The notes beneath the pieces are model-generated. The model made no database searches, was not told the origin of the DNA, and saw only the letters and a list, made by a program, of their open reading frames with translations. From Massariosphaeria phaeospora (Eukaryota; Ascomycota; Dothideomycetes; Pleosporales), in the NCBI GenBank assembly GCA_011032825.1, contig JAADJZ010000009.1:1-64000 (forward strand): a stretch of DNA of 64,000 nucleotides. Reading direction: 5' to 3'. The translations under genes were made by a program, and so were the position numbers. Shown here in pieces: positions 15,842-34,986 of this stretch. How positions within the stretch are numbered: position 1 is the first letter of the stretch; each line of letters starts with the position of its first letter.

Positions 15842-16463
15842 GCGGGAAGGGAGGGGAGATGACGGAGTGACTGCGGGATGGGATGGGATGGGGGGATCGT
15901 GGATTACTTACTGCCTCAAACCAAATTCTACACATGTTACTCTACTCTAGGAGCTGTAGACGTTAGTGTGTATACCGCAAGGACGGCTTTATTATTCCGC
16001 TGTTCTGTGTATTTCAGGGATGTGGGCTACGTGACCTGTAGCTTAGAATTTCTGTCCTTCGTCCTCCTGCTCGTAACTCTCATGCTGAGTATAGTCACGT
16101 AGTAGAGATGCTGTAGCCTAGGAACCGCATGGATTGACGCGTCTACTAGATAGGGGATATACGTATGAAAGAGTAGTAGTATAGAGAAGCTGTTAGAGGT
16201 ATAGACGGTGCGGTGTAGCGTGTGTGATATGCGGCGTGCGGTGCATGCGGTGATGTCAATGTGTACGGACTTCTTTTGGATTCCCTTATTGTCCTTGTCC
16301 TGTTCCTTGATCTTGCCATCGCCCTCGTCCTCCTTCTCCGCGTCCCGTTTCTCCTTGTTTTCTCTCCCGCTATCCTCCTTCTCCTCGCCGTCTTTCTTCC
16401 CATCCTCCCCCTCTTCCCCCTCTTCTTCTTCAAGCCTCCGCCCCAACGACGAAGCACTCAATG
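15842..16463. other. Intergenic region with a pyrimidine-rich tract
   Basis: The first 400 bp after the glycosidase hold nothing I recognise. From about 16,270 to 16,440 the plus strand is strongly C/T-rich (degenerate CTT/TCC runs); readings in all frames give low-complexity peptides. On the minus strand this is a purine-rich tract directly downstream of the T10 stretch described next. Confidence 0.6.
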
Positions 16464-16484
16464 AAAAAAAAAACCTGGCCAGGC
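16464..16484 (-). terminator. Possible minus-strand terminator: GC palindrome followed by T10
   Basis: Read on the minus strand, the palindrome CCTGGCCAGG is followed directly by ten T residues (plus strand A10 at 16,464-16,473). A T-run of this length stops RNA polymerase III. It lies at the 3' side of the hairpin array if that array is transcribed on the minus strand. It could equally be a chance homopolymer. Confidence 0.3.
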
Positions 16485-16608
16485 AAAGGGGGCTCAGTGG
16501 TCAGGGACCGCGGGCAGACTTGCACCCGCGCGGTGTGACGTGAGCGAGAGGCTAGGCCTCCCATACCAGAGTTCAATCAGATCCCTCTGGGTGTCGGCGT
16601 ACAGCAAG

Positions 16609-17645
16609 CGAATGAATTTCAAGCAAGCCAGACGCCAACGTGCAAGACGAATGAATTTCGAGCCTCGCGGGGGTTGGGCGAATGAATTTCGAGCCCGGGG
16701 TTGCAAGACGAATGAATTTCGAGCCTTGCGGGGTATGGACCTCGGAGGAGTGACGAAAGCCACAGCGACAGGGCGAATAAATATCGAGCCCTGCCACCTC
16801 CGAACAATAGTGAATGAATTTCAAACCATTGTGACAGAGCGAATGAATTTCGAGCAATGTCAGCCCAAGGGGTTCGTTGCAGAGACGAATGAGTTTCGAG
16901 CCTCTACTGTGAGCGAATGAATTTCAGACCCACAATCCTGCGGCAGTAAAGTCCTTGGGCGCAATACTCAGAGACGAATGAATTTCAAGCCTCTGCAGAC
17001 ACACAAGCCGAAGCAAGTCAATCTGACTGTAGGAAACGAAGTTATGGCGAATGAATTTCGAGCCACTGACAGAGCAAGCTCCATCGGGGTTCATTACGAA
17101 GGCGAATAAATTTCGAGCCAACGCTGCGAGCGAATGAATTTCGAACTCACAATCCAAAGGCTGCGAAGACCTTGGGCCAACGCACAGAGACGAATGAATT
17201 TCGAGCCTCTGCAGGCACACGAGCCGAAGCAAGTCAACCTGACCAAAGGAAATGACGGGGTTTCATTACGGAGACGAATGAATTTCGAGCCTCCGCTGCG
17301 AGCGAATGAATTTCGAGCTCACAATCCAAAGGCTGTGGAGACCTTGGGCCTCCACACAGAGACGAATGAATTTCGAGCCTCTGCAGGCACACGAGCCGAA
17401 GCAAGTCAACCTGACCGAAGGAAATGAAGGGTTGTGGCGATTAAATATCGAACCACAGCGGCAGGCAAGCCTACCAGGGGGCCACCCAGGGAGCAGAAAA
17501 CAACGCAAGCCCGAGAGCGAGTGAGGTCCAAAGACGAATGAATTTCGAGCCTTTACAGGCAAGACCGAGAGGTCAAGCCTGCCTGCCCCGAGGGCGGTGC
17601 CAGTCCAAGGCCAGAGAGCCGGAGCCCAGAAGCGAATAAATATCA
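16609..17645. repeat. Array of about 20 quasi-palindromic cores (CGAATGAATTTCG) with variable complementary arms
   Basis: Cores start at 16609, 16648, 16679, 16709, 16774, 16811, 16840, 16886, 16914, 16975, 17048, 17103, 17131, 17191, 17275, 17303, 17363, 17438, 17535 and 17633. Variants include CGAATAAATATCG and CGATTAAATATCG. A two-base bulge (usually AG) follows each core, then an arm complementary to the one before the core. Examples are CAGGGC/GCCCTG (16,774 copy), TGTGG/CCACA (17,438), AGAAG/CTTCT (17,633), CGGAG/CTCCG (17,275), GCAAG/CTTGC (16,709) and GAGC/GCTC (17,303). Arms differ between copies but match within each copy; only the first copy lacks matching arms. Spacing varies from 26 to 97 bp, so this is neither a CRISPR array nor a minisatellite. 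Confidence 0.85.
16910..17440 (+). repeat. Higher-order tandem units inside the hairpin array
   Basis: Two to three units of about 172 bp (start near 17,127 and 17,299; a diverged one from about 16,910) repeat the same succession: core, CACAATCCAAAGGCTG, CCTTGGGC, core, GCCGAAGCAAGTCAA, core. Thus copies 10, 14 and 17, and copies 13 and 16, are related by unit duplication and are not independent evidence for arm covariation. Confidence 0.75.
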
Positions 17646-17683
17646 AGCTTCTACAGACAAGACCCCGAAGGATCGAGCCTGCC
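17553..17683. repeat. Second hairpin type, two copies
   Basis: At 17,553-17,585 the sequence reads AGGC-AAG-ACC-GAGA-GGT-CAA-GCCT, a hairpin with inner and outer stems. A diverged copy occurs at about 17,650-17,683 (GACAAGACCCCGAAGGATCG then GCCTG). They alternate with the last two core hairpins. Confidence 0.6.
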
Positions 17684-17692
17684 TGACCAAGG

Positions 17693-17830
17693 GTGGCGGA
17701 GAGCGACAGCGATCAACTCTCCGGCGGAGGTGTGAGCCTCCGCGACAAGGCGAGCCCGGCTCGATCTTGTGTGGGGGTAAAAGAGAGAGAAGACAAGGTG
17801 AGCGCGGCTCGGTCCTTGCCAGGGTCGCAA
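17693..17830. repeat. Consecutive GC-rich hairpins
   Basis: Four adjacent stems can be drawn: GGAGAG/CTCTCC (17,698-17,722), GCGGAGG/CCTCCGC with a 6-base loop region (17,723-17,743), ACAAG-GCGAGC/GCTCGA-CTTGT (17,745-17,771) and ACAAGG-GAGC/GCTC-CCTTG (17,793-17,820). The last two share the GAGC-NCG-GCTC tip and are probably copies of one unit. Confidence 0.6.
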
Positions 17831-18414
17831 AGAGTGGAAGAAGGGATGCAGCGGGCGAAAAAGAACGCGAGGGTTAAGTCGCTATTACGTGCTGGGGGAG
17901 GGATAAGAAGAGAAGAGCGTGAGTGTAGCAAAGGCAAAGATCGCGAGGCGTCGAGGTGGTGGGCGGTCGGTGGAGTGTGGAGGAAGAGAGAGAGGGAGGA
18001 AACTTCGTGGGAAGCGGGGTTTATGAGGCGAGGTGAAGGCAGGCCTTGGCGCCCGCGCCACCGTGGCCGGGCTAGTCTGCTTTGGGACTAGTCCGAGTAC
18101 CGCGAAGCAGAGGGTGAAGACAAGTGAGAGAAAACTTCCACCAAGTGAGATCAGTCAATCTCACGAGCCACGTAGGTAGAGTCACCTTGGTCAGCTCTCG
18201 TAGTGTCAAAAGCTACAAAGCTCTGACTTTGGACGGTCTCCAAAGCCTCAGCTACGGTTACTACGCTACTACAGAGCACACTGCGCGAGGAGCTGCCCTA
18301 CAAAACATATTACAACCAGTGCGTGAGTGAGATACGTCACTGCCAAGAGCTACAAGTCACCCAGCAATTGGGGCGGGCCGAGATCGCAGGTGAAGGTGGA
18401 TCACACGCCTGAGT

Positions 18415-18507
18415 GCGAGCTTATATCCTGGCCGCACCCTCTCACCTCCCACCTCTCACCACCACCCACCTTTTCCTACACACACACTACAACTAGCCCA
18501 CCTCACA
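18415..18507 (+). promoter_or_regulatory. Likely core promoter and 5' UTR of the CCCH-like gene
   Basis: TTATATCC at 18,421 lies 87 bp before the ATG, followed by a C/T-rich leader (CACCTCCCACCTCTCACCAC) as is usual upstream of highly expressed fungal genes. The hairpin region ends just before it. Confidence 0.45.
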
Positions 18508-19149
18508 ATGGCTAGCACCCCGATCATCCCCAACACCGCCTCCAAGCGCGCCGCGTCGGCATCCGCCTCGCCCGCGCATCCAGGTGAAGCTGACGCGTCC
18601 GGCGACGACCCCAACTACGACGAGCTCGAGGACGACGAAGCAACCAATGGCCTCTTTGTCACCGACGACGAGACCAACGACGATGCCAACGTCACCAACC
18701 CCGCCCCAGCCGCCCACCCTCTCTCCCTCATCGCGTTGAACCACGGAACCGAAAGGGTTCTCGCGACCGCCCTCGCCGCCGAAGTCCTCAAGAATGAGGC
18801 GCTCACCAACGAGATCGCGCAGCTCAAAGCGCAACTCGCCCTCACCACCACCGCCGCCACCACCACCGCCAGGCGTGGCCGAAAACGCACCCCCGCCAAC
18901 CCGCTCCGGCCAGACGGCGTCATTTCAGGCAGGGTCACCAAGGGCAAGGCGTCTGGCGGCAAGGGCCCTGAAGCCACTGCGGGTAAGTTTCGTGCTGCCG
19001 CCGTACCCACTGGCTGCCCGCGCGAATACGGCACCCCTCCAGGACGATGCCACCGCAAGGGCTGCAACAAGCTACATCCGGACCAGTTCGCCAGGTACCA
19101 GGCGATGGAGGGCAAATTCGGGCACGTTGTGGACGCCCTGCTCAAGTAG
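18508..19149 (+). CDS. Small protein with coiled coil and CCCH-type zinc-finger-like C-terminus
   Basis: Intronless, 213 residues. Residues 1-75 are Ala/Ser-rich then acidic (DDPNYDELEDDEATNG), probably disordered. Residues about 82-112 form a likely coiled coil (LAAEVLKNEALTNEIAQLKA). A basic linker (ARRGRKR) follows. Near the end, C170-X10-C181-X4-C186-X3-H190 (CPREYG…GRCHRKGCNKLH) resembles a CCCH zinc finger with a slightly long first spacing; such fingers usually bind RNA. I do not recognise an orthologue. Its place just beside the structured-RNA candidate, transcribed away from it, makes an RNA-binding role worth testing, but that link is only positional. Confidence 0.75.
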   Translation: MASTPIIPNTASKRAASASASPAHPGEADASGDDPNYDELEDDEATNGLFVTDDETNDDANVTNPAPAAHPLSLIALNHGTERVLATALAAEVLKNEALTNEIAQLKAQLALTTTAATTTARRGRKRTPANPLRPDGVISGRVTKGKASGGKGPEATAGKFRAAAVPTGCPREYGTPPGRCHRKGCNKLHPDQFARYQAMEGKFGHVVDALLK

Positions 19150-23429: not shown

Positions 23430-25360
23430 TCACGCCCTCGACACCAAAAACCCCGAACTCTGTAACTTTTGAAAAACTTGTCGAGGATCGTACTTTCCCG
23501 CGACAGTCTTCAAGTGCGCCAGGCTATCAGCCCCATAACTTCTCAGCGGCGACTGACTGTACGAGGCATCGTTCTGAAACTGGAAGGGAAGTAGCAGGCC
23601 CCGCGATCGCGCTGTGGATTCGATGCGCGAGATGAGCTCGCGGAGCTTCGAGCGCGCCGCTTGGTCGTCAGCGGAGTCGGTCCACTGCGCTACGAGAGCG
23701 AGCCCTGGGGTGCGAGTAAATGTCAGTAAGAGTGTCTGGGAGATCTGCCGCGGTGTAGATAGACGTACAAGATTGCGGTTCGGGACGGATGTTCACTGCG
23801 TTGCTGCTTTTCGCCTGGCCTTGTCGAGCAGCCGGTGCACCGAGCGGTTGGTATGTGAAGCCTAGATTGAGATTGCTATTACCAACGATCTGCTGCAGAA
23901 CCAGTTGCAAGTCCTGGTACAACTGGACGTCAGGCTTTATAGTCAACGCGCCTATTTCGAATCTGTACGTCTGATCATTAGCACCGCGCGTACGCACATA
24001 CAGGGCCGCTGGGGACTGACTTTGCAGTGCCGAGCCCGCCAGCACGGGAGAACGATGCCTGGGTGCCGTTGGTAGCTGGAATTGCATCCAGCAACACTGG
24101 TATCCCATCGAAGGCGCGGAATGCAGCGGGGAACGTGGTCCACTCCCGGTACACAAGGCCCGCCGTTAACGTACCAACACCTTGGTTCAAGAAGAAGCCG
24201 ATCTTATCGTTAGTCTCCATGGCTTTTTGAACCTCGATGGTGGCTTGCATGACACGCTTGACGTTGCTGGTGTTGTAGACTTTGTAGTTGTACCATACAC
24301 GGTAATCTGGGTAGGTGTGAAGGTCGAACCTTGTCACAATGCCTTTCGGAAAAGTCAGACGACTCAGGAGAAACCCCGCAGTCTACGTACCAAAGTTGGG
24401 CCCGCCTCCCTTGAGAGCTTTGAATAAGTCAAGGTGACTTTTCGAATTCGCCTGGACGATCGTCGAATTGGCAAGAACCACCTTCATGATGATGAGCTTG
24501 CTTCGCTTTGCACATGCTGCAACATACCTCGAAGTTTTTCACATTGTCACACACGAGACCCCAGTGGTTAGAGAAGTGAGACATGCCACCTAGATGTGCA
24601 CGTCAGTTCCACCGCCACCAAAAGAAGAGGCACTCAACACACCTCCGAGGACAAGTCCGCCAGCACCAACACCAGCAGCGCGCCCACCGGCAACTGTGAG
24701 TTGATGTTGCTCAACATAATCGTAGATGTTCTCCCATGTAGCTCCGGGGCCGACGGAAGCAATGGACTTATCCGCAGAAATCCAAGCGGAGTCCATGGCC
24801 CCCAGGTCGATCAAGACACCCGATTGGTCGATGCTGCCAAATCCAGGGCTGGGGTTGTGCCCACCGCTGCGGACGGCGAAGGGCGTCTGGGTGAAAACCA
24901 CGAGTCCGAGAGCGATGGATACCTCAAGAGCGTTGCGCACATTCAGAAAGCAAGCCGCGGGAAGCCAGCAGGTCGTGGACCAATTCTCCTGCTTTTCTTC
25001 CTCGTATGTCGGCTGCTGTGGCGTCACAGCGCGCGATCCGTAAATGAGTTGGCCAGCTTTGCAGACCAGAGCCGTACGGCGAGTCTCCGGGGCGCTGTCG
25101 ATCTGTTTCCCTATGTCGTTCAGGGCTTTGGCGTTGTTGTTGATGACTTGACGGAGTTCGCTGTCTCGGGTAGCGAGGGTGGTAGACGAGAGGTTGTCTT
25201 GAATAAGGCCGAGGAGGTGGCTGGACAGGGACTCTACGGTCTGTCGGCGGTCTGCAAACTGGGGAAGGTGGTCGTCGTGGATGCTGTTGGGTAGCGCCGA
25301 GCAGATTCCTAGAGCGAGAGTCCACAGCATCGCGAGGAGTATCGTCCGACAGTAAGGCAT
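23430..25360 (-). CDS. Secreted FAD-linked oxidoreductase, berberine-bridge (BBE)-like
   Basis: Six exons: 25,360-24,643, 24,589-24,528, 24,481-24,391, 24,342-24,021, 23,962-23,769 and 23,704-23,430, giving 553 residues; introns 46-64 bp. A signal peptide (MPYCRTILLAMLWTLALG) precedes the PCMH-type FAD domain. RSGGHN places the usual flavin-linking His at residue 168, followed by GVLIDLGAM and GGRAAGVGAGG. Where bicovalent BBE enzymes carry a Cys in this last loop there is none, so only His attachment is expected. The C-terminus ends SYGADSLAHLKTVAGKYDPRQVFQ, the BBE signature. Family members oxidise alcohols, sugars or cyclise secondary metabolites. The second intron (46 bp) has a weak branch site. 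Confidence 0.9.
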
Positions 25361-27037
25361 GACCAGGTAGCGCTGGATCTTGACGCAGAAGCGCTGAAAA
25401 CGTTACTGTGCATGTATCAAAAGACGCAATTGGCGCAAAACCTTCCGCGTCTGACGCTCCTTTGCTGCAGTTAAAGTATTTGAGGAAAACACAACAAGGA
25501 ATGTAAGACTTTCTTGGCTCCCACTCGTCCAGGGGATGACTTTGTTTTTCGGGAACTGGATGCGGAGGTACGGCTAGCGCGGTTATTGTTGGATCACTTA
25601 GGACATCGGATATTGACCTTGCCGCTGCTTTGGGCGAGTTGCATGCGCAAATGCAGGCCATCAAGCCAAGCACCAATTGCTGACACCATGGCGTCTAATC
25701 ACAATCAAGCAGAGCGGCAAAGCATGACACGATAGGATCGCTTGACGCTTATGGCGTCAGACACATGTTCTCGGCCGAGTCCGTGGTCGTATTGCATGGG
25801 CGTCCCCAGCCTCACGTGGGAGTCCACCATGCGAAGGATCGCGGGGAGTGTTTGCGAAGCAATCCAGATGCTCGCCACTCAGCACTTGTCCAAGCGAAGA
25901 GGCCTCGAAAACATCCATACACTCACTTGGCACTGGACGTCGCCTCCGAATAAGCCGATGCGATAAGAAGAGCGACAGAAACTGTAGGCTGACGATGTGC
26001 TATCGATCAGTATCAGATCTGGAGGCGTTTCCGCCATTTGGGGTGGAGTCCGTCCGTGGGTTCTTTCCGCCTTGCTGAGCTGCGGCTCACCCACCCCGGC
26101 CATCCAGTATCGCTCTTCGCCATCCAATCTTCCCTTTGTACCTCCTGTATTCCAAAGGCCGGGCGCGTGTCACAGCGCAGCTCGGGCCATCGTGAACGAA
26201 GTGGGCGGTATCGGATAGCAACCGGTCGTGGGAGCAGCGCGCGACGTCTCGAGGAAAATCGGAGGAGGCGGCTACATGGCTTTCATCCGGCTGCAGCATC
26301 ACGGTGATCTGTTCATCACATCAGCATAGATCCCTAGAGTTCCACACGGGGAGCATTGCGTACCTTGAGGGACTGCCGCTGGTGTCGTGGGCAATGACGA
26401 TGGGGCGGCGAGGGCGGACTGGCTGGCCGAGCTTGCGCTCAAGCCATCGATGGAGGAGACTACACGTCATTTTCGACAAGGCGGTCTGGTTCGTGTGCTT
26501 TGTGGGCAATGGTGTCGTCGACTCGCTTCTCGGTCGGTGGTGTTGGTGTGGTGTGGGTGGGTTTCGGCGCGTCATCGGAGGAAGCAAGGTCTTGGCAGCC
26601 CAGCTCCGGCGCGCTAGACCTCTGCGGGAAAGCGCGTGTGCACGTGTCGGCCGTCGAGAAGAAACCTTGGAAGTTCTCACAAAGCTCAAACTTGTTGCGG
26701 AGAGCCTCGTTTGTTTCCTCAAGGCAACGACTCATTACCAACATGTACACACTCCACCTGTAGGTATCCATCGCGAGTTCTTCAGGTTTCGATATGGTTT
26801 CTTCAGCCATGCCGTCGCGGCACCACTCGCCTTTACGCCACGCCCACGCCTCTCCCCCGTCCGATCGCCATGTCCTCCCGGCTTGCCAGAAGGTTACCCG
26901 CATAGGCGAAGTGATTCATGCGCTCGGGAACCCTCACCATCACGTAACACAGCATACCTCATGTACCAGCGAACCATGAGCCCCAGGCGGCCTTCATTTC
27001 TTCATAACGTACTAATGAGCGAATGCTTTAGGACCCT
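25361..27037. other. Intergenic region with possible decayed coding remnants
   Basis: No intact gene. Minus-strand readings at 26,870-26,470 (…MSRCLEETNEALRNKFELCE…) and 26,050-25,760 (…PDLILIDSTSSAYSFC…) have protein-like composition and could be pieces of one decayed gene, perhaps a cluster regulator, but I could not join them with convincing splice sites and saw no Zn2Cys6 motif. Confidence 0.35.
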
Positions 27038-29538: not shown

Positions 29539-30887
29539 ATGGCTGCTTCCGAAACTCTAAAGACCCTTACCGCCCTCGCCAATTCTCCCCCCGAGATCTT
29601 CAAGGACGAAGATCGATTAGCCGCTCTGGCAGCATGCACCAAGCTTCAGGAGAGGCTGGAGAGTCCTTTAGAGACCTTCTTGCGGTTTATGTTTGGAGTG
29701 CGAACAACAAGCCCATCTTAGTAGAGTGATCGCTGACATACTACTAGGGACTCCAGGGGATGGTACTCAGAGTGGGAGTGGAGACCAAGATCCTGCAGAA
29801 GGCTGTTGAAGCCAAAGGTCCAATTGAAATAGTGCAATTAGCTGCAAGCACGTCTGCTGATCCTGATCTCGTCCGTAAGTACATTCGAAGTCCAAGACTT
29901 GCGTTGTTGAACAGTGTCGATTTTTGAAGGCCGTATTGTGAGAATTCTAGCGGCAATGAAACTGTTCGAAGAAACGGGAGAAGACGTGTACTTGGCGACT
30001 CCGTTGGCTGGCGCGTTTGTGGCTCCATCTCCATTGGAGTCTGCTGTGCTGCATATGTGAGTCATCCACTTAACATACTTACATGACTCGAAATGAACTG
30101 ATCAACTACCTTCAGAGGGTCCTCACTCCCCACAGTGGCATCGATCCCGGAATATCTGGCCGAGAAGGGTTATCACAACCCAAATGATGCCTTTGACGGT
30201 CCGTGGCAATACACCAATCGAACCAATGATCATTACTTTGACTGGGTCGCCAAACGACCCGTATTGCAACAGGCGTTCAACACTGTTATGACCATTTCCC
30301 GCATGGAACGTGGTGAAGAGTGGTTCGAGTTCTTTCCGGTGAAAGACAGACTGAAGGTTCGATCACCTGATGATACCTTACTGGTAGATATTGGCGGTGG
30401 GGTCGGGCACGATGCCATTGCGTTCAAAAAGCATTTCCCGGATCTGCCAGGAAGACTGATCGTCGAGGACCTCCCAGTTGTCATAGCTGATGCTAAAGAC
30501 ATGCCTGATGGGATCGAGTTACTGGGTCACAGCTTTTTCAATGAGCAGCCGCAATTGGTCCACAAAGCGAGGGCCTATTACCTGCGCACTGTCCTGCATG
30601 ATTGGCCGGACAAGCAGGCTAGGGTCATCTTGGAGAATATTCGAAACGTGATGGCAAAGGAATCCATTCTCTTGATCAACGAGAACTCGCTTCCAGCTGC
30701 TGAGGTGCCACTTTACCCCGCTCAGTTGGATATCTTGATGATGGCTTGTTTCTCTTCGTTGGACAGAACAGAGAAGCAGTTCGCTCAGCTTCTGGATTCG
30801 GCGGGATTTGAGCTTGTTCATGTGTGGCGACCGAAAGTCATGCTTCCTGGTACTGGGGTTCTTTTCGAAGCAGTTATGAAGGGATGA
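29539..30887 (+). CDS. S-adenosylmethionine-dependent O-methyltransferase (class I, fungal sterigmatocystin/plant COMT type)
   Basis: Four exons: 29,539-29,697, 29,748-29,874, 29,930-30,056 and 30,116-30,887; 394 residues. Introns are 50, 55 and 59 bp with GT..AG ends. The N-terminal dimerisation helix bundle (ETLKTLTALANSPPEIF…) precedes a winged-helix segment. The Rossmann motif LVDIGGGVGHDA (Asp229, Gly231-233) binds SAM, EDLPVVI contains the acidic ribose contact, and LHDWPD contains the usual catalytic His299. Such enzymes methylate phenolic hydroxyls of polyketides or other aromatics. Start chosen at MAASETLK; the upstream in-frame region has only non-ATG starts. Confidence 0.93.
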
Positions 30888-32488: not shown

Positions 32489-33423
32489 TGCAAAGGGTGA
32501 GTTGAGAGAGAACCACAGTAATTTGGTGAGGATGAGGGGTGCAGCAAGCAAATGCACATGTAGAACGCTGTTGTGGAAAACAAATGGGTGGAATATCCAA
32601 CCTAAACGTGCACCCGTCCCAAGGTGCATTGAGAGACACCTGTCGTTACTGGTTCGGACCCCACTCAAGCGGGGCAAAATAAGAGGCACAAACAGACATG
32701 TAGTACTTTGCGCGCTTAAATTCAATCAGTGTACCTGGAAAGGAACCGGCGTCGCAGGCCATAAGCGCATATTTGCAATATTGTCCGTTTGCCTCTGTGA
32801 TCGTACATGAGGCGAGAGGGACCGATGCATGGAGCTACAATAAAAATAGAAAATTTCTGACGGTTCCAGTATCAAGATATGCCACATGTGCAACTAAACC
32901 CTCTTGGTTGCGGACTTGCTCGCCTTGCCGCCCACATTCTGCATGTGTAAGGCGCTGAAAGCGAATCTTTCGTCTGACATTGAGGCGAGGACACAAACTC
33001 GGGGTTTACTCGGGCCTAAGGTTTCTCTGAAGGATCTCATGAGATTGCTACCCACGGGCAATCTCGCAGAGGATTTTCGAAGAAACACTGGGCCCGAGTA
33101 GTGTCTCCCCGCTTGCATCCCTGCATGCGCGTCGTTACGGAGGATCTGGGCCTGTCGTATCCAATAATGCAAAAGTGATTTGCCCTTCGCTTCGGAAGTG
33201 CCTCGATCATTGACAGGTATAATGTGCTGGTTATGGACTCAAGGGGTCGCTCATTGGGTTCGTTGGATGTGACGAACATGCATACGGCTAGTAGCTAGGA
33301 ATTCCAGTAACCAAACGGCGGTCACGCGTGAAGGATCCAGAGAGTATAATTACCTTGTCACCCATTACAACCACAAGCATACTTCCGAAAACCGTGGCTA
33401 CTGCAACCCCACGAATCAAAACT
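32489..33423. other. Intergenic region between cluster genes
   Basis: No supported gene. It should include the divergent promoters of the PTH11-like gene and the prenyltransferase. ORFs here are short and have no domain. Confidence 0.5.
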
Positions 33424-33847: not shown

Positions 33848-34114
33848 CTAGGCGCTATCACCCCAGTCCCATATACTGTACAATTGATCAATTGCCTCTT
33901 CAGTAAGCGGAGTCGTAGTCCTATCTTTGAAGCCAGCTCTGAGCCAGCATCGTATACAGTAAATTGCCGCGAGTAATTGAGGCGACAGAGCTCTACGCTT
34001 TGGCTCTAGGAGATCGCTAACCTCGCTAAACATACGCTCACATTCACAGCTAGATGCCGGAATTGATAGTACGTCAATAGCCAGCCTGCTGAGGTTGGGA
34101 TAGAGCTGCTTCAT
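33848..34114 (-). pseudogene. hAT transposase C-terminal dimerisation domain
   Basis: An 88-codon open segment with the hAT C-terminal signature LSIPASSCECERMFSEVSDL, then RRALSPQLLAAIYCIRCWL. It is the only long open part of the outer element; upstream on the minus strand (to about 34,985) the frame is broken. A nearly identical segment lies at 35,224-35,469 in the inner copy. Confidence 0.9.
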
Positions 34115-34986
34115 GCCTATCCAATAGGCAATCGGGTTAATTGAATGGGGGTGATTCGATGGGAGATGAGGCTCTCGTCTCCAAAGCTCAAACTCGTTAC
34201 TGCTATTAGCAACTGCTCTGCCTTGTACTGGATTTGTAAGGAGATCAATGCTTGCCTGTATATCCGATACTTTAACTTTCTTGCGCGAGCGTTCTAAATC
34301 TAGAGTCTCCTTCGGCTTGTACTCACTCCATAGCGCCTGAAAAGCGGCATCTGATGAGGCAATCCACCCAGGTTGATCTGCCCATGAGTTTTGACAGTAG
34401 AACTTCGTGTTTGGGTGCAGTATCGTAGCGGCGTAGTACGCTGGCGAGTTATTAAGTTTCTCTTAGTACCTTTGAAGCTTTTGCTATGCTGCGTATATGT
34501 TGATAGCTAGATAGTCCTCTAGCGAGTTCTCCTCGTTGTAATTGACGCTCTCGTATTGCTGCGCAATCTGCTCGTAGGTGTTGAGTACGTACTCAAAAGT
34601 AGAGATAACGTTATGTAGCGCACTGAATCTTCCAGTGTTGCCTCTGCCTTCGAGGCGCTTTGTGGCCACTTTCAATAGCTGTAGAACCTCAATGTACTAA
34701 GTAATAACACCCCAATCTGCTGCGCTTAATCTAGTTGACGTCATCTACGCCGAAGACTTAGCTATCTGATTCCCGCGGGCAGAGGCGTACGCAGCGGCCG
34801 TTCGTGTATTCTCGATATGATACTGTATGTAGGCATCAAGCGGATTCTTGAGCCTCTCAACAGCTCGCTCAAACGCAGAGCAGAAAGAGTTCTATCTATT
34901 TACTACTAGCTTAATCGGCTCAATCTTGTTTATATGGCTTCTGTTGAGCTTCTGCTTCCTTGCGTACGAAGCTGTATAGCAAATCG

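Follow-up and report, generated by a model that had tools for sequence, protein, structure and literature searches.

The DNA analysed here, a stretch of 64,000 nucleotides from the fungus Massariosphaeria phaeospora (hereafter the window), carries an array of 20 hairpins (array 1) at 16602..17654. Read on the minus strand, the hairpins share the form arm-G-[CU]-CGAA-AUUCA-UUCG-Y-arm, with covarying arms. The array lies within an inferred RNA gene of 2004 nt (16425..18428, minus strand), delimited by end elements that are shared with other loci. This gene would run from a TATA-like box (GGATATAAGC in minus-strand letters; 18419..18428, minus strand), which has counterparts at most related loci, to a conserved 3' end. 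Downstream of the array on the minus strand lie conserved hairpin II (16566..16590; loop GAUCUGAUUGA on a 6-bp stem) and conserved hairpin I (16507..16534; core GGGUGCARGUCUGCCC), both of which recur on contigs C12 and C1 of the same genome. These are followed, again on the minus strand, by a tract of 10 U (16464..16473), a 3' stem-loop whose stem sequence varies by locus (16436..16454) and an invariant GGCUUGAAGAAG at the 3' end (16425..16436). An earlier note on this DNA had set the limits of the feature at 16609..17645; the array instead sits in an inferred gene of about 2 kb that reaches well past both. Reading 16480-16590 as tRNA-like was rejected: an ARAGORN scan of the window gave no tRNA, and at C12 the stretch resembling an A box is, by eye, not preserved.

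Divergent from this gene, on the plus strand, an open reading frame of 213 aa (P0001; 18508..19149) is predicted to encode a long helix and a C-terminal CCCH-like finger, the motif C-x10-C-x4-C-x3-H (19015..19077, plus strand) taking up all three cysteines of the protein. Elsewhere in the window, pieces of FAD-binding (24590-25402), P450 (27792-28310) and O-methyltransferase (30102-30887) genes between 23400 and 31000 possibly represent a metabolite gene cluster. A very stable plus-strand fold occupies 32961-33120 (z=-8.2), a piece of a hAT transposase lies at 33848-34462, and from 36000 to 64000 the G+C content falls from ~0.55 to ~0.26-0.34, resembling repeat-mutated AT-rich fungal DNA.

Covarying arms in array 1

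The 20 copies with a constant tip described in the earlier note are present where it placed them. Its build of a tip within variable arms also stands, with corrected dimensions: the tip has a 4-bp stem, a 5-nt loop and a 2-nt bulge, and the variable arms measure ~5-7 bp. At up to 3 mismatches, CGAATGAATTTCG has 33 matches in the window, 20 of them within 16609-17645 on a single strand and 11 exact, where chance would give a mean of 17.2 and at most 30 in the whole window. The exact 15-base tip pattern GAATGAATTTCRAGC has 12 matches in the 42-Mb genome, 12/12 inside array 1, and none in that genome either on the opposite strand or with a reversed control pattern. When the 20 copies are used to train a covariance model, it recovers all 20 of these training copies and gives no convincing 21st copy (next match E=0.031). 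One isolated match to the model, on C12 (C12:832802-832830; L047 2303-2331, plus strand; 21.6 bits, E=0.0015), falls outside any array and could be a target site or chance.

Within-copy matching of the arms was tested by permutation on 17 copies, after copies 14, 16 and 17 were dropped as duplicates. On the minus strand, 100/119 arm positions pair within their own copy versus 69.1 (sd 4.7) when permuted, and on the plus strand 85/119 versus 55.9 (sd 4.2); none of 200,000 permutations equalled the observed pairing on either strand. The signal holds among 8 mutually divergent copies (47/56 paired versus 32.4, sd 3.4; p=4e-5). The register of the arms is fixed, with a mean of 5.95/10 pairs at offset 2 and 2.35-4.05 at offsets 0, 1, 3, 4 and 5. 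Covariation scores reach 0.418 on the plus and 0.594 on the minus strand, versus 0.126 and 0.243 for shuffles (0/500 as high), and the score of 0.594 drops to 0.207 or less once the partners are slid. Two-sided changes occur at 8/11 pairs, a number equalled by 10 (plus) and 15 (minus) of 500 shuffles. The claim of compensatory change within copies is thus supported, and it persists after removal of the duplicates. Because a constant loop is carried on individually matched stems, selection appears to keep the presented loop and a helix, not the sequence of the helix.

Other readings that the earlier note had set aside fare no better here. Hairpin starts are spaced irregularly, 28-98 bp apart and without a common reading frame, which rules out a peptide repeat. 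CRISPR arrays have near-identical repeats at regular spacing, whereas the repeats of array 1 vary, at those irregular intervals and in fungal DNA. Nor is the array a plain minisatellite.

A second array and a family with common ends

A BLAST search of 16400-18500 against the fungus's own genome found one other place, C12:840519-840604 on the minus strand, 82% identical over 16500-16591. This similarity covers hairpins I and II, with one two-sided change in the stem of hairpin I. Adjoining it we found array 2, with 14 hairpins that have an inner stem GAG/CUC and the loop AAAYKUYG; the count of 14 is the union of two lists of 13, and 13 were aligned, leaving out a copy with a 7-nt loop. In array 2 the covariation score is 0.446 versus 0.231 for shuffles, two-sided changes occur at 10/13 pairs, and within-copy pairing stands at 94/130 versus 75.2 (sd 4.4) when permuted (p=2.5e-5; p=0.003 for 6 mutually divergent copies), with 79% of stem positions paired in the register used. 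Since the tip of array 2 is unlike that of array 1, the build recurs without the sequence. The earlier note had suggested looking for other arrays with the same tip; no further exact match to the 15-base tip pattern turned up in this genome, but the same build with a different tip exists at C12.

The end elements extend further than the arrays. Eight loci, namely the window, C12, C1:103388, C7:132272 and C7:143604 (the two C7 loci, C7a and C7b), C23:239275, C27:198735 and C29:215525, all carry on the RNA strand a run of 5-10 U, C(A/G)UU, a stem-loop and an identical GGCUUGAAGAAG. The stem-loop folds at 8/8 loci, with a summed MFE of -68.6 versus -30.5 (sd 5.7) for letter shuffles. Counterparts of the TATA-like box are GGTATATAAGC at C1 and C23, CGTATATAAGC at C7a, GGTATTTAAGC at C7b and GGTATATAAGT at C29; in same-strand letters the box reads TATATAAG at C1, C7a, C23 and C29, TATTTAAG at C7b, GATATAAG in the window and ATATATAT at C12, and C27 has no clear box. 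From box to 3' end the family loci span 206 to 2004 nt, and by eye GCTAG..TCAGC-like DNA lies upstream of the box at both C7 loci, C27 and C29. Members have common ends and mostly unrelated interiors. In the family RNAs of C29 (L089) and C27 (L088) a further hairpin, GUCC...GGAC, is by eye repeated a few times.

The six loci beyond the window and C12 were found by letter patterns in the fungus's own genome. At up to 1 mismatch TTCTTCAAGCCNNNGCC gave 38 matches versus 24 for the reversed pattern, so most of these are chance; in the 130 bases beyond TTCTTCAAGCCNNNGCC, read at 18 loci, the element was present at five (C1, C12, the window, C7a and the second C7 site). The pattern CTTCAAGCCN{12,40}ACTCAA gave 10 matches versus 4 reversed. 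From these we excluded C11:297967, C13:515489 and C23:1910019, which match with longer gaps; C13:515489 also has no A-run in 130 bases, and C11 and C23:1910019 were excluded on the matched letters alone. C1 fails this pattern (TTTAATG for ACTCAA) and entered through a near match to hairpin I. Both hairpins are present at C1 in swapped order, and the loop of hairpin II, which sits on the same stem at C12, there sits on a different one. A leader model trained on the window and C12, run on 11 loci that included near matches to hairpin I (up to 3 mismatches), scored C1 at E=0.0034 for hairpin I and E=0.066 for hairpin II. A combined hairpin I and II pattern had no match in viral contigs and matched 4 bacterial genome contigs. 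These scored weakly with the leader model (L029 E=0.23; L027 E=5.3 over 17 positions) or were absent at E<=10 (two contigs), and we therefore take them as chance. Pol III genes of the U6 type offered a comparison: among 6 U6 matches in the genome, 2 were read on both flanks, and another 3 over a short stretch upstream. The two read downstream have GGTTCGAG after the T-run, which by eye was not seen at family loci.

That the eight loci form a real RNA family is well supported, and we consider it highly probable that they are at least eight genes of a new structured RNA family, functional and read from the minus strand at the window. The choice of strand rests mainly on mispairs and on the 3' stem-loop. 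Expressed as G.U/(G.U+A.C), the minus-strand share in both arrays together is 0.833 versus 0.709 permuted (p=0.0002; p=0.0005 with the 17-copy array 1). It is 0.838 versus 0.719 in array 1 alone (p=0.002; p=0.024 with 17 copies) and 0.828 versus 0.699 in array 2 alone (p=0.004). The raw plus-strand count of 23 A.C versus 4 G.T overstates the strand bias because base composition alone favours it; composition accounts for some of the bias, permuted pairs also being richer in G.U than in A.C, and a plain test of the G.U-minus-A.C difference is not significant (p 0.17, 0.34, 0.24). The 3' stem-loop is more stable on the RNA strand at 7/8 loci (summed antisense MFE -46.2 versus -68.6). Other signs are neutral, opposed or mixed. 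Overall foldability does not pick a strand (mean z -1.21 plus, -1.47 minus; 23 windows). The TATA-like box is nearly palindromic and could therefore also serve a plus-strand gene; upstream of one U6 gene (on C23) CTTATATAC reads sense, an orientation that would be the plus strand at most family loci. In the window, a pyrimidine-rich stretch lies on the plus side of the box, before P0001, and not on the minus side; in favour of a minus-strand gene, pyrimidine-rich DNA by eye follows the box on the minus strand at C1, C7a, C7b, C12, C23 and C29. We give more weight to the wobble share and to the 3' stem-loop than to the opposing signs and thus prefer the minus strand, from which the RNA is most likely transcribed. 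The earlier note had read the plus strand; on the minus strand its A.C mispairs become G.U, and the end elements fit a minus-strand gene.

The best-placed rival is that the arrays are a product of DNA-level processes: a diverged quasi-palindromic minisatellite whose arms came to match through gene conversion or through mutation templated on the hairpin, and which has no function as RNA. Array 1 does contain three related tandem units of several hairpins each on the minus strand, at 16869-17041, 17086-17257 and 17258-17429; the second and third are 92% identical, and the first is 76-89% identical over parts. Several of the 14 differences between 17086-17257 and 17258-17429 come in matched groups, as copying could give. 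Such processes do not account for a constant loop and bulge on free stems, for the same build with another loop in the second array, for mispairs favouring G.U on one strand at both arrays or for the shared TATA-like and 3' elements, and we regard this reading as unlikely. Slightly less probable still is a family of non-autonomous mobile elements with conserved ends, in which the hairpins would be cargo or a by-product. Such elements would show what is seen here: ends conserved at eight loci around interiors that are for the most part unrelated, and a sharp left boundary at CTTCTTCAAGCC. Yet at the family loci, where the left boundary is the defined one, no target-site duplication was seen (shared edge words are absent at two and 5-7 nt long at six). 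In addition, one end resembles a promoter and the other the covarying 3' end of an RNA, and at least two members have structured arrays as their interiors. Hairpins following one another in one putative transcript would also suit a small-RNA precursor or other processed RNA in which each hairpin is a processing site; but the tip is conserved here and not the stem, and stems of ~10 bp are short for Dicer, so we give this reading a similarly low probability.

Divergent CCCH-like neighbours

If the array belongs to a structured RNA, as we favour, its neighbours may be informative. Only 1 of 20,000 shuffles of P0001 contained the CCCH-like pattern. In the 128,504 bases scanned (the window plus ten loci), C-x7-11-C-x3-6-C-x3-H occurs in 4/483 stop-to-stop ORFs of at least 80 aa, a figure that contrasts the neighbours with nearby ORFs and not with the genome, because the scanned DNA lies nearly all around family loci. 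The four ORFs are P0001, an exon of P0002 and its tandem paralogue at C12, and part of the C7b protein, so that CCCH-like genes lie beside three of the loci; all four are on the strand opposite the RNA and point away from it. The splice models of P0002 and the C7b protein were made by script. P0002 is the annotated hypothetical protein BDV95DRAFT_614360, and it aligns with P0001 by BLASTP at E=1e-4 (a single comparison; 17/56 identical) with the finger cysteines aligned. The C7b neighbour (L087 5534-6500) has by eye a coiled-coil-like stretch, Zn2Cys6-like cysteines and a CCCH-like finger, none of which Pfam reports, and the divergent ORF at C1 resembles, by eye, a coiled coil. No CCCH motif occurs within 10 kb at C1 or C7a, or in the 0.5-1.5 kb covered at C23, C27 and C29.

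The proteins thus have the cysteine-histidine spacing of CCCH zinc fingers but no significant match to a CCCH profile. P0001, the C12 protein with its paralogue, and the C7b protein all lack a significant Pfam family; the best CCCH profile for P0001 is PF22628 (E=0.2, not significant), and the 27 CCCH matches to PF00642 in the genome all lie away from the family loci. Among 5.77 billion proteins, in a search that needs shared 5-residue words, P0001 had no homologue but itself at E<=0.001. In the same kind of search P0002 matched its own annotated record alone at E<=10, and residues 175-275 of the C7b protein matched nothing at E<=1. P0001, P0002 and the C7b finger region therefore look like products of orphan or fast-evolving genes. 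A single-sequence AlphaFold model of P0001 gave helices at 80-124 and 191-212 and no usable finger, at a poor mean pLDDT of 52.5. Linkage of RNA and CCCH-like genes may descend from one ancestral cassette rather than reflect function, and that these proteins are the partners of the multi-hairpin RNAs is somewhat less than an even proposition. Palindromic sites near a divergent promoter, and the Zn2Cys6-like pattern of the C7b neighbour, might also suggest iterons, serial DNA sites at which a transcription factor would bind to control the adjacent gene, but DNA sites require neither variable arms that match within each copy nor mispairs that favour one strand, and bulged hairpin tips would make poor duplex sites, which renders this the least probable of the alternatives.

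Known systems and a proposed role

Long RNAs with repeated protein-binding modules are familiar from NORAD, meiRNA, the Xist A-repeat and roX. Unlike those modules, the ones here each consist of a constant loop with a covarying stem; the array RNA would moreover belong to a multi-locus family with common ends. In bacteria, the sponge RNAs CsrB and RsmZ bind an RNA-binding protein through one loop motif that recurs on many hairpins of the RNA (PMC7652899). The arrays likewise carry many hairpins sharing one loop motif (20 and 14 copies), but these loops (AUUCA; AAAYKUYG) contain no GGA, and the array RNA would be eukaryotic and 2 kb long, with no CsrA and only a candidate partner; by analogy, it would work like a CsrB-type sponge but is not one. 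Type III toxin-antitoxin systems (ToxIN) combine tandem pseudoknot repeats, a terminator and an endoribonuclease toxin in one operon (PMC5086642). A repetitive structured RNA gene is linked to a small protein gene here as well, but its hairpins have changing stems, the protein gene is divergent on the opposite strand with no shared operon, and the protein is CCCH-like, with nothing pointing to a ToxN-like endoribonuclease (no significant Pfam family, no usable structure model). Repetitive hairpin elements in the mitochondria of sponges keep the sequence of their stems and take substitutions in the loops (PMC2800124); the repeated hairpins here are nuclear and do the reverse, with free stems and conserved loops.

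Structured fungal non-coding RNAs, of which ours would be another, were surveyed by Li and Breaker in 2017, who described 15 motifs (PMC5640933); no section title of that paper names such an array, and the words 'array', 'tandem', 'repeat' and 'zinc finger' are absent from its main text. Rfam gave no match at gathering score in the window, in keeping with the earlier note, which had recognised no described element. At E<=1 across the eight loci (20,742 bases), two sub-threshold matches appeared, neither convincing: hammerhead III (E=0.031, 27.8 bits versus a gathering score of 48.5; L059 1725-1814, plus strand, antisense to the C7b RNA) and Giardia U1 (E=0.82). Among the open-licence papers searched we found no description of such a hairpin array or family. 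Because the known systems compared differ, Rfam has no match and no description was found, we regard the RNA family and its build as new; a sponge role by itself is of a known kind. The earlier note had mentioned neither the common 3' end and TATA-like box nor the family of eight loci, the second array with its different tip and the divergent CCCH-like genes.

We propose that array 1 is the body of a structured non-coding RNA of ~2 kb, read from the minus strand, in a family whose members would carry a common 3' end signal, at which the RNA may be processed, and mostly a TATA-like box on differing bodies. In two members a short loop motif would recur, 20 times in one and 14 in the other, with a separate stem for every loop. 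Repeated sites for one ligand would be expected to look like this, with a constant loop and bulge recurring 14-20 times on helices that change. The ligand would most simply be a protein, making the array RNAs multivalent protein-binding RNAs, a reading to which we give even odds. The likeliest partner would be the small CCCH-like protein whose gene diverges from the RNA gene across a shared intergenic region; the fingers of the protein would bind the loops, and its helical part would serve oligomerisation. By collecting many copies of this protein, the RNA could titrate or assemble them, as a sponge or scaffold. Judged from sequence, this whole scheme, with a minus-strand RNA of a new family bound multivalently by a CCCH-like partner, stands at an equal balance of probability. 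More tentatively, and with the chances rather against it, the loci may represent a eukaryotic class of two-gene modules, in which every divergent locus joins a multi-hairpin RNA particular to that locus with a CCCH coiled-coil protein of its own, loop and protein have co-diversified into mutually specific pairs, and the RNA acts as sponge, scaffold or antidote.

It is rare for covariation within a single gene to reveal what a long RNA does, and here the copies inside one array gene serve as their own alignment. With its common ends, its loop arrays that differ by locus and the CCCH-like genes linked to it, the nuclear RNA family offers a testable RNA-protein pair of loop and finger, and the family would be a model for the diversification of RNA-protein specificities.
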